Source: Clostridia bacterium (GTDB taxonomy: Bacteria; Bacillota; Clostridia; Oscillospirales; CAG-272). From it: a stretch of 40,053 nt of DNA. The stretch is taken from the NCBI GenBank assembly GCA_017522795.1, contig JAFWXZ010000042.1, positions 1 through 40,053 on the forward strand. Direction: 5' to 3'. How positions within the stretch are numbered: position 1 is the first letter of the stretch; the number at the start of each line of letters is the position of its first letter. Positions 23,942-39,921 of the stretch are shown piece after piece. Under the pieces are notes generated by a model that did not search any database, was not told the DNA's origin, and worked only from the letters and a program-made list of their open reading frames with translations. The position numbers and the translations under genes are program-made.

Positions 23942-25345
23942 TTATAAATTCAGCACGTTTTGTGCTACGAGGAGGTAGACGATAAGCGAGATGGCGTCTA
24001 CCAGGGTGGTGATCAGGGGGGATGCCATTACGGCGGGGTCGAGTCCAACCTTCTTTGCAAGGAGGGGGAGGCTGGCGCCAATTACCTTGGCAAGAATGAT
24101 GGTCAAGGTGAGCGACAGGGCAACGGTCAATGCTACGGGGAGAGTGACTGCCGCATTGCCGAGGAGAAGTCCGTCGATAAGCATAACCTTGGCAAAGGTG
24201 GCGACGCCGACGGTAAGGGCGCAGAGAACGCCCACGCGCAGCTCCTTCCATATAACACGGAAGAGGTCGGAGAACTCCAGCTCGGCAAGCGAGATGCTAC
24301 GGGTGACCGTGACGGAGGACTGGCCGCCCGAGTTTCCGCCCGTACCCATTATCATAGGGATAAAGAGGACGAGGACGGCGGGGAGGGCTGCCTCAAAGCT
24401 GCCGAGAATCGCGCTGGAGAGCGTAGATGAAAGCATCAGTATAAGGAGCCAAGGAATTCTCGACTTCCAGATATCGAATACGTTGGTTTTAAGATAGGGT
24501 GTATCGGACGCGGAGGTGATCGCAGCCATCTTGGCGAAGTCCTCCTCCGACTCCTCGATAATAACGCCCAAGGCGTCGTCTACGGTGACGATACCGACCA
24601 GGCGGGACTCGCTGTCCACGACGGGAATTGCAAGGAAGCCGTACTTATCCAGCTTCATAGCAACCTCCTCCTTATCATCGTGGGTATGGACGGCGATAAC
24701 GTTATCGTCCATAATATCCGAAAGAGCGGTCTCGGGATCGGAAATAAGCAGATCCTTTGCTGTCACGATACCGAGCAGGCGCTTATCCTTACCCGTCACG
24801 TAGCAGGTGTAGATAGTTTCCTTATCTATGGCAACGCGGCGAATGTGGAGCAGGGCGTCGGCAACCGTCATATCGCCCGTAAAGCGAACGTACTCGGTGG
24901 TCATAACCGTGCCCGCAGAGTCCTTAGGATAGCGGAGGATCTTATTGATCACGGCGCGGTCATCGCTTGCTGAGTTCTTGAGAATACGCTTTACCACGTT
25001 GGCGGGCATCTCCTCAATGATGTCAACCGTATCGTCGATGTAAAGCTCGTCAAGTATCTCCGAAAGCTCGCGGTCGGTGAACTTTATAATCAGGTTTTCC
25101 TGAAGATCCGAGTCCATCTCAACGAAGGTCTCGGCGGCAAGCTCCTTTGATAAAAGCCTGAACAGAAGGCTGTGGTACTTCTCGTCAAGCTCGTAGAACA
25201 GCTCGGCTAAGTCGGGCGCGGGCAGATCCTCTACGTGCTGCTTTACCTCCTGGTATTTTTTCTGCGACAAAAGGTCGGCAAGTCTCTCTGAGGCAATGAT
25301 CTCTTCCTCATCAAAGAGAACTGTGTTTATGTTCTTTTCTTCCAT
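23942..25345 (-). CDS. mgtE: Magnesium transporter MgtE
   Basis: The 467-residue magnesium channel/transporter has the full family layout: the acidic superhelical N domain (about 15-130), two CBS domains (about 135-260, each with the IVT motifs LLGIVTAKDLL and LVGIVTVDDALG), a plug helix, and five TM helices (about 290-465). The pore motif PMIMGTGGNSGGQSS and the magnesium-site region PLITTLVDAISL are present. Cytosolic Mg2+ closes the channel through the N and CBS domains. AAAGGAGG lies 5 bases before the ATG. Its 150-base leader has a strong promoter, a 26-codon reading frame and alternative hairpins, but no recognisable M-box. DUF523 and murC lie upstream on the same strand with no terminator between. 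Confidence 0.96.
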   Translation of the reverse strand: MEEKNINTVLFDEEEIIASERLADLLSQKKYQEVKQHVEDLPAPDLAELFYELDEKYHSLLFRLLSKELAAETFVEMDSDLQENLIIKFTDRELSEILDELYIDDTVDIIEEMPANVVKRILKNSASDDRAVINKILRYPKDSAGTVMTTEYVRFTGDMTVADALLHIRRVAIDKETIYTCYVTGKDKRLLGIVTAKDLLISDPETALSDIMDDNVIAVHTHDDKEEVAMKLDKYGFLAIPVVDSESRLVGIVTVDDALGVIIEESEEDFAKMAAITSASDTPYLKTNVFDIWKSRIPWLLILMLSSTLSSAILGSFEAALPAVLVLFIPMIMGTGGNSGGQSSVTVTRSISLAELEFSDLFRVIWKELRVGVLCALTVGVATFAKVMLIDGLLLGNAAVTLPVALTVALSLTLTIILAKVIGASLPLLAKKVGLDPAVMASPLITTLVDAISLIVYLLVAQNVLNL

Positions 25346-25350
25346 TTTGG

Positions 25351-25409
25351 CCTCCTTTCTGCTCGTGGCAGAGTGGAGATCAAATGCAGAGTCTCGCTAT
25401 GCCGAGCAG
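25351..25409 (-). promoter_or_regulatory. Mutually exclusive RNA stems controlling the mgtE ribosome site (candidate translational attenuator)
   Basis: Stem A: TCTCC (25379-25375) pairs with the mgtE Shine-Dalgarno GGAGG (25355-25351), stacked across a small internal loop on TCTGC/GCAGA (25372-25368 with 25362-25358) and loop CACGA. Stem B: CTGCTCG (25409-25403), inside the leader reading frame, pairs with CGAGCAG (25365-25359), which destroys stem A and frees the ribosome site. The anti-Shine-Dalgarno starts directly after the leader stop codon, so a ribosome terminating there would cover it. Pairings are read from the sequence; the switching is inference. Confidence 0.6.
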
Positions 25410-25460
25410 GTGTTTTGTTGTTAAATTACACGGGTGGTGTGTACTTCGTCCGTCCGACAT
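25380..25460 (-). CDS. Leader peptide upstream of mgtE, 26 codons
   Basis: On the minus strand ATG 25460 follows AAAGGAG with a 6-base gap, as good a ribosome site as that of any gene here. The frame runs 26 codons (starting MSDGRSTHHPC, ending GIARLCI) to TGA at 25382-25380, 34 bases before mgtE. It lies entirely within the mgtE leader transcript, and its codons 18-20 form one arm of a stem competing with Shine-Dalgarno sequestration. The peptide is basic and has a His-His-Pro-Cys motif but no hydrophobic signal. The likely role is regulation by its translation. It resembles the logic, not the sequence, of MgtL of Salmonella mgtA. Confidence 0.6.
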   Translation of the reverse strand: MSDGRSTHHPCNLTTKHLLGIARLCI

Positions 25461-25492
25461 ATCGGGCTCCTTTCTTTTTATTTTATATATTA

Positions 25493-25521
25493 ATTTTACT
25501 CCCGACGGAGTGATTTGTCAA
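25493..25521 (-). promoter_or_regulatory. mgtE promoter
   Basis: TTGACA (25516-25521), 17-base spacer, TAAAAT (25493-25498) on the minus strand, 16 bases after the DUF523 stop. Predicted transcripts begin near 25486, giving an mgtE leader of about 140 bases. Confidence 0.83.
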
Positions 25522-25537
25522 GGCATTTTTTTCGCTA

Positions 25538-25987
25538 TCAGCCCATTTTTTCAAGCAAAAGTCCTATCTCATCCTCGGTGTATACTGCGATGCCTGCTTT
25601 CTTTAGCATTTCAGCCGCAACGCCGTCGCCTGAGATCAATTTTCCGCTGAAGCTGCCGTCGTAGATCTCGCCATTACCGCAGGATGGACTGCGCGCCTTG
25701 AGAATAGCGGCAGAGGCGGAAAAGCTCTCGGCACGCTCGAGCGCTGCGCGCGCACCTGCAAGATAATTTTCGGTCACGTCCTTGCCATCCCGCATAAGAA
25801 CCCTGTCCCCTACCCTTTCACTGGGAGTGCGGGGAGTGGGAAGTCCTCCGTCCACCTCAGGACAGATTGGAATAAGAACGAATTTTTCTCTGAGCTTAAT
25901 TACGTCTGCATTAGGCTTGCAGGCGCCGTCATAGCGACAGCAAACGCCGAGCAGGCAGGCGCTGACAAGTAGGATGGGCTTTTTCAT
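25538..25987 (-). CDS. DUF523 family protein
   Basis: The 149-residue cytosolic protein shows the family pattern: ILLVSACLLGVCCRYDG, PICPEVDGGLPTPR, ILKARSPSCGNGEIYDG, and a C-terminal VYTEDEI. Cysteines 11, 16, 17, 42 and 104 could bind metal or thiol. The biochemical role of DUF523 is not known to me; related domains occur fused to DUF1722. AAGGAGA lies 5 bases before the ATG. It sits 9 bases after murC and is almost certainly co-transcribed with it. Confidence 0.9.
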   Translation of the reverse strand: MKKPILLVSACLLGVCCRYDGACKPNADVIKLREKFVLIPICPEVDGGLPTPRTPSERVGDRVLMRDGKDVTENYLAGARAALERAESFSASAAILKARSPSCGNGEIYDGSFSGKLISGDGVAAEMLKKAGIAVYTEDEIGLLLEKMG

Positions 25988-39831: not shown

Positions 39832-39921
39832 GGAGATGTACTCAAGTGGTGAAGAGGCGCCCCTGCTAAGGGTGTAGGTCGAGCAATCGGCGCAAGAGTT
39901 CAAATCTCTTCATCTCCGCCA
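39832..39921 (+). tRNA. tRNA-Ser (anticodon GCU)
   Basis: This 90-base class II tRNA decodes AGC and AGU. Acceptor stem GGAGATG (39832-39838) pairs with CATCTCC (39911-39917); the discriminator is G39918 and CCA (39919-39921) is encoded. The anticodon loop CTGCTAA holds GCT between stems CGCCC and GGGTG. A long variable arm (TAGGTCGAGCAATCGGCG region), diagnostic of serine tRNA, precedes the T arm with GTTCAAATC. It has its own promoter and terminator, so it is transcribed alone. Confidence 0.96.

Follow-up and report, generated by a model that had tools for sequence, protein, structure and literature searches.

Translation-based control ahead of Mg2+ transporter genes has been studied in Enterobacteria. 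According to PMC8092293, Salmonella MgtQ is an 8-codon ORF before mgtB, situated between mgtC and mgtB, that carries Asp2 and Glu5 and controls translation through stems 1:2 and 3:4 versus stem 2:3; its acidic residues lower translation of the leader and raise expression of the transporter. MgtL, the peptide encoded ahead of mgtA in E. coli and Salmonella, is described in PMC11282234 as losing ribosomes at an EPDP motif when Mg2+ is low and as acting on a Rho-dependent terminator. The M-box of pe20 in M. tuberculosis has a uORF, rv1805A, whose role is said in PMC12810186 to be unclear. In a literature search covering few subscription papers, mgtL never appeared alongside mgtE and the strings MDAGSS, MDAGST and MSDGRS were not found; in PMC12288461, 'mgtE' and 'leader peptide' concern different genes.

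The window, which is the whole 40,053-nucleotide stretch of clostridial DNA analysed here, encodes on its minus strand the magnesium transporter MgtE of 467 aa (23942..25345; TIGR00400, 445.8 bits against a cut-off of 232.75, E = 1.6e-133), with the start ATG at 25345 and the Shine-Dalgarno sequence AAAGGAGG at 25351..25358. In front of it, on the same strand, the initial annotation had placed a 26-codon frame with the ribosome site AAAGGAG and an ATG at 25460, and this frame was confirmed: a leader ORF at 25380..25460 consists of 26 sense codons and a TGA (25382-25380), MSDGRSTHHPCNLTTKHLLGIARLCI, and its frame and N-terminus are kept in relatives. The AAAGGAG (25467..25473) lies 6 nt from the leader ATG, and 34 nt separate the leader stop from the mgtE ATG. 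A sigma-70-like promoter with 11 of 12 consensus matches, TTGACA (25521-25516) and TAAAAT (25498-25493) with a 17-nt spacer (25493..25521, minus strand), sits just 5' of the leader ORF, and the transcript would start near 25486. Such promoter-like sites occur within 150 nt upstream in 93 of 113 leaders (18.0 expected from shuffles). Further upstream of mgtE are murC (TIGR01082) and an ORF at 25538-25987, which gave no match in an NCBIfam search and which we take to be DUF523-like.

The window leader resembles MgtQ, as described in PMC8092293, in being a short Shine-Dalgarno-led ORF ahead of a Mg2+ transporter gene, in having an acid near the N-terminus (Asp3 in MSDGRS) and in a plan of stems 1:2 and 3:4 closed versus 2:3 open, with a translational platform in the window. 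It differs from the MgtQ of that source in location, just behind a promoter-like site and before mgtE instead of between mgtC and mgtB, in length, 26 codons against 8 residues, and in the transporter family; a sequence relation is not claimed. With MgtL, as described in PMC11282234, it shares a leader peptide before a Mg2+ importer gene and an acid near the N-terminus, whereas it has no EPDP, precedes mgtE and adjoins a Shine-Dalgarno hairpin. Because location, gene and motif differ, the window leader was filed neither as MgtQ nor as MgtL. The M-box (ykoK, RF00380) occupies the same place before mgtE in some relatives, but no aptamer was found in the window, where about 26 nt would lie between the transcript start and the leader ATG. 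An M-box followed by a uORF, as in the pe20 report (PMC12810186), is also the arrangement in six clostridial relatives, while the window has no M-box. In an Rfam scan, no family reached its gathering score at the leader region, and with permissive settings 25200-25600 returned no more than two matches, both at chance level (E 5.6 and 7.4); on these scans an M-box, or any other Rfam element, was rejected for the window.

Our main reading, to which we assign a probability of roughly 0.6 on the basis of sequence comparison and folding, is that the window leader is a real, conserved, translation-dependent attenuator of mgtE with an MgtQ-like plan and an additional codon lock, in which ribosome position would switch the stems, slow or lost ribosomes would mean ON and low Mg2+ would be the signal. 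In this scheme, segment 1 is the leader start with CGA-AGT, segment 2 comprises codons ~16-21, segment 3 lies just 5' of the mgtE Shine-Dalgarno sequence and segment 4 is that sequence itself; mgtE would be closed by 1:2 together with 3:4 and open with 2:3. Translation is proposed to slow or abort at CGA-AGT (25443..25448); where a ribosome lags, stalls or drops off near these codons and the acidic N-terminus, segment 1 would stay unpaired. Segment 2 would then be freed and take segment 3, so that mgtE opens, and a ribosome completing the leader would restore the closed form. Slow or unstable early translation would probably report low Mg2+; the link to the ion comes from the gene and the position of the leader.

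For the comparison with relatives, mgtE upstream regions were taken from 50 of 58 genus, 40 of 74 order and 40 of 85 class match rows, plus 80 loci kept, among the matches listed, from named GTDB contigs, nearly all titled clostridial MAGs. A blind search applied criteria of Shine-Dalgarno sequence and ORF length only and ignored the peptide. The genus, order and contig sets together supplied 160 distinct clostridial mgtE regions, where distinct means differing in sequence and the relatives are not independent events; an ORF turned up in 95 of them, against a shuffled mean of 18.5, and in about 40% the rule found none. Asp stood at residue 2 in 63 of the 95 ORFs (shuffled mean 0.7) and CGA-AGT within the first 16 codons in 45 (0.0). 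The genus alone gave an ORF in 30 of 50 regions (6.3 shuffled), 15 of them with CGA-AGT (0.0). The class-level set gave 21 ORFs in 40 regions (4.8 shuffled), with Asp2 in 14 (0.1) and a CGA or Pro motif in 18 (0.8). The random substitutions, frame breaks and lack of covariation that the initial annotation had named as refuting its reading are not the pattern of the relatives. At the level of sequence, the leader with its conserved N-terminus and its codon lock is established, as are the stems within the window clade.

A second, pattern-chosen set comprised 118 leaders (113 distinct), and its motif counts lean towards the motif because the selection pattern prefers D/E close to the start as well as R[SRE]. 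This set underlies the codon counts by motif and by leader, the promoter and downstream-pairing counts, and the swap and terminator results. Leaders of the commonest type share the consensus MDAGSSxGxxxGRS, taken from 26 chosen rows. One contig, L150 of Anaeromassilibacillus sp. An172, carries MDAGSSAGAVPGRSS. The window's own leader motif had five matches, in 5 of 61 genus genomes, all five just upstream of mgtE. With a profile of the leader N-terminus, all seven hits with E <= 0.003 in 117 order genomes also lay just upstream of mgtE; the profile is of low sensitivity and was built from leaders including most of these seven, which therefore point only to the absence of any equally high score elsewhere, the next hit (E = 0.0037) falling in a 131-aa frame. 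Of two DNA patterns for the motif at other genes, one was so permissive that chance hits abounded with both the pattern and its control, and the other returned ten rows spread over 8 of 117 genomes, of which four were mgtE leaders already known. Five leaders had no match in NCBIfam. Leader-like frames that the ORF finder missed or scored low were seen in L077, L094 and L101: MEADNGSTRLF.. running towards mgtE, the 12-codon MSHSNTKYYIRS, and a GTG-start frame with CCC-CGA-GGG. In L054 and L055, a distant-type mgtE (27-28% identity to that of the window) is also led by MDAGTDRQS..VPLC, with CGA and a Pro motif.

Codons 5-6 of the window leader, CGA-AGT (25443..25448, minus strand; Arg-Ser), form a motif that codon counts in relatives identify as locked. 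Distinct leaders contain 55 Gly-Arg motifs, and 52 of these encode Arg by CGA, while the Gly codon varies (GGG 19, GGA 16, GGC 14, GGT 6); the synonymous choice at the leader Arg is conserved beyond the amino acid and the Gly codon is free. The first Arg of the leader is CGA in 89 of 106 leaders, although L007, a close relative, has CAA in its stead. CGA accounts for 41% of Arg codons in leaders versus 5% in mgtE ORFs, and AGT for 44% of Ser codons versus 6%. Among the Arg codons of long ORFs, the share of CGA is 5% for the window and 8% for the loci fetched, with no rise in the first 20 codons (3% of 31 Arg and 8% of 237 Arg, respectively). The lock remains an unexplained feature of the leader. 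The draft genome, 78% complete, holds 27 tRNA genes with the Arg anticodons ACG, CCG and CCT and with no tRNA-Arg(UCG), anticodon TCG, among them; because no TCG anticodon is present in this incomplete genome, inosine wobble may be the sole means of decoding CGA in the source organism. A tRNA-Ser(GCT), which reads the enriched AGT, is encoded in the same window (39832-39918, plus strand), probably by coincidence. Reading by eye in the +1 frame from CGA, an early TAA, often within a shared TTAA, was seen in L006-L013, L015, L017, L021, L026 and L031 and was absent in L014, L019, L022 and L024; in the genus leaders it may have arisen by chance in A-rich sequence.

Across the window and its four closest loci, the leader region is nearly invariant over its first 33 nt, which would also suit a conserved RNA aptamer or protein site overlapping an ORF by chance. 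This alternative we regard as highly improbable, since the third positions of the leader Ala and Gly codons vary freely, and since in the blind set (116 ORFs, 200 regions) CGAAGT occurs 49 times in the codon frame against 3 times out of it, though its position shifts among leaders from codon 4 to 15, which points to translation and not to an RNA motif. A general tendency of CGAAGT to pair with the RNA downstream was rejected too (mean z -0.37 over 96 leaders, 21% of them below -1.5), and CTTCG as its downstream partner is found in 10 of 112 regions against 16 expected.

The RNA around the mgtE start can form the hairpin 3:4 (25352..25378, minus strand), the proposed OFF state, in which CTCC (25378-25375) pairs with GGAG (25355-25352) and TCTGC (25372-25368) with GCAGA (25362-25358). 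TCTCC (25379-25375) directly follows the leader TGA, and its pairing with the GGAGG of the Shine-Dalgarno sequence, reinforced by TCTGC/GCAGA, had been proposed in the initial annotation and is seen in the MFE fold. That fold also contains a stem between the leader start (~25470-25450) and codons 18-25 (25409-25388). Segment 1 (25434..25474, minus strand) extends from the leader Shine-Dalgarno sequence to codon 9 and has segment 2 as its partner, whereas segment 2 (25395..25421, codons 14-22), with the core CTGCTCG (25409-25403, codons 18-20), can pair with segment 1 or with segment 3 (25355..25380, core CGAGCAG 25365-25359), the latter being the proposed ON pairing. The sequestering and alternative stems are mutually exclusive because both use GCAG. 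The CTGCTCG/CGAGCAG stem was thus rightly described as destroying the hairpin, but at equilibrium the hairpin wins unless a ribosome stands at the leader end. Stem 1:2, which completes the four-segment attenuator, and the conserved N-terminus with its locked CGA had been missed earlier. The fold energy (z = -1.97; 9 of 200 shuffles fold as well) is by itself weak evidence; conservation is strong.

Conservation of the stems was assessed by a swap test, in which cognate pairs of fixed segments were compared with pairs exchanged between loci; the segment limits were fixed after viewing the first 11 loci, from which L013, near-identical to L011, was then dropped. In the resulting 10 window-clade loci, both 1:2 (p = 0.0045) and 2:3 (p = 0.0001) were favoured, with the control 1x3 at p = 0.99, and in 17 genus loci the values were p = 0.0001, p = 0.00005 and p = 0.94. 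For segment 3 with segment 4, p was 0.044 in the clade set of 10 and 0.001 in a further 14 loci of the genus. Seven of the latter gave p = 0.052 for 1:2 and 0.064 for 2:3, and all 14, including the seven, p = 0.0037 and a marginal 0.093, with null controls throughout; these loci back 1:2 and 3:4 better than 2:3. Segment 2 also favoured the 26 nt after its own leader stop (p = 0.015 and 0.0016, controls null), and its pairing with mgtE coding sequence was null. With generic segments in 87 leaders, 1:2 had a mean z of -1.84, and 2:3 reached p = 0.00006 in the genus and p = 0.84 outside it. The 1x3 control was null inside the genus (p = 0.28), significant outside it (mean z -1.0, p < 0.00001) and at p = 8.5e-6 over all 87 leaders. 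Because 2:3 is unsupported and the control significant outside the genus, the stem plan is shown for the genus only.

The effect of a ribosome was modelled by equilibrium folding with ribosome footprints blocked. In the window, the mgtE Shine-Dalgarno sequence opens only with a ribosome on the last leader codons (from 0.31 to 0.71-0.76), and opening with the ribosome there was found in 12 of 22 modelled genus loci, among them L024, which opens with an early ribosome too (0.95). The expected number of 2:3 pairs in the full window RNA was 0.00 with no ribosome, 1.46 with a ribosome at the Arg codon and 8.55 at the stop, and when the RNA was cut before the Shine-Dalgarno sequence, 2:3 formed with or without an early ribosome. 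In L024, L019 and L011, the complete RNA forms 2:3 at equilibrium once the Arg codon is blocked. Since the window opens at equilibrium only for the last codons, an ON state from early stalling would need co-transcriptional kinetics. These results suit plain translational coupling, in which ribosomes finishing the leader open the hairpin or reinitiate, early loss is OFF and the leader sets the level only; a stop-to-start distance of 34-39 nt, seen in 9 of 11 listed loci from the window clade, agrees with it as well. Coupling leaves the locked CGA-AGT, the conserved N-terminus and stems 1:2 and 2:3 unexplained, however, as it does the relatives with long gaps or terminators, and we consider it unlikely, yet a live rival. 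ON through early stalling, as in the attenuator reading, is our best guess, by analogy with MgtQ and MgtL.

A strict intrinsic terminator lies between leader start and mgtE in 14 of 105 loci (0.6 expected); an earlier terminator finder was too permissive (79 of 111) and was replaced by the strict one. In L026, L029 and L038, leader codons can, by eye, pair with the first arm of the terminator. Regulatory platforms change while the leader stays, such intrinsic terminators in some relatives being an example. In L017, the terminator hairpin lies inside the last leader codons; translation to the leader end would disrupt it, so the sign of control is possibly the opposite there.

Consistent with the initial annotation, which had seen no M-box, none was found in the 61 genus genomes (RF00380, stricter filters; controls B. 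subtilis and L. lactis positive), whereas 6 of 117 order genomes have one. An M-box precedes mgtE in 14 of 100 scanned loci (3, 4, 1, 2 and 4 per batch of 20), a sample that contains at least one locus twice (L073 and L156). Of 40 loci selected for lacking a clear leader, 7 had the M-box, and of 20 selected for having one, a single locus did; four of those 40 (L082, L093, L095, L098) had a candidate leader, and L095 is among the seven. In six of the 14 M-box loci (L095, L159, L290, L294, L307, L314), a leader candidate, defined as a Shine-Dalgarno-led ORF with an acid or Pro motif in the first 16 residues, lies between M-box and mgtE. These counts give no support to mutual exclusion of M-box and leader, and six loci carry both.

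The absence of an MgtL sequence, also claimed in the initial annotation, is true of the window leader but does not extend to all distant relatives, some of which read MDYDPLP or MDSDPLP, with MDSSPLP and MDPGPLP in others, the DPLP recalling the EPDP of MgtL. Pro motifs (PLP, PLC, PP) are present in 12 of 28 leaders without CGA versus 8 of 108 others (p = 2.7e-5), in a table that mixes pattern-chosen leaders with 28 class-level leaders picked by eye. This distribution bears on a further alternative, an attenuator that answers another signal, such as charging of the CGA-reading Arg tRNA, general elongation rate or polyamines, and has mgtE as its output. The enrichment of CGA and AGT over mgtE and the lack of tRNA-Arg(UCG) among the 27 tRNA genes of the 78%-complete draft would fit such a signal, but the greater frequency of Pro motifs in leaders without CGA, albeit in a partly pattern-selected set, the leader profile scoring as high at no place other than mgtE and the M-box holding the same position in relatives all speak against it, and we think it quite improbable. 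A broader proposal, that a class-wide family of clostridial mgtE leaders senses Mg2+ via decoding, with an acidic N-terminus followed by a hard step (PLP or an inosine-read CGA), CGA and proline being interchangeable and the ion being read through the ribosome's weakest codon-anticodon pairing, is tentative and to our mind rather doubtful.

If the attenuator reading is true, translation-based control before Mg2+ transporters would also be widespread in gut Clostridia, and would there precede an unrelated transporter, at or just behind the place where others have the M-box. The leaders would form a natural series, with a locked synonymous codon taking the place of prolines, and how a ribosome reports Mg2+ would become directly testable. 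In L159, an M-box (780-940) and a leader near 1002 stand before the same mgtE as tandem control elements. In several class-level genomes (G192, G226, G280, G206, G207 and G300), two mgtE genes lie close together on one contig.
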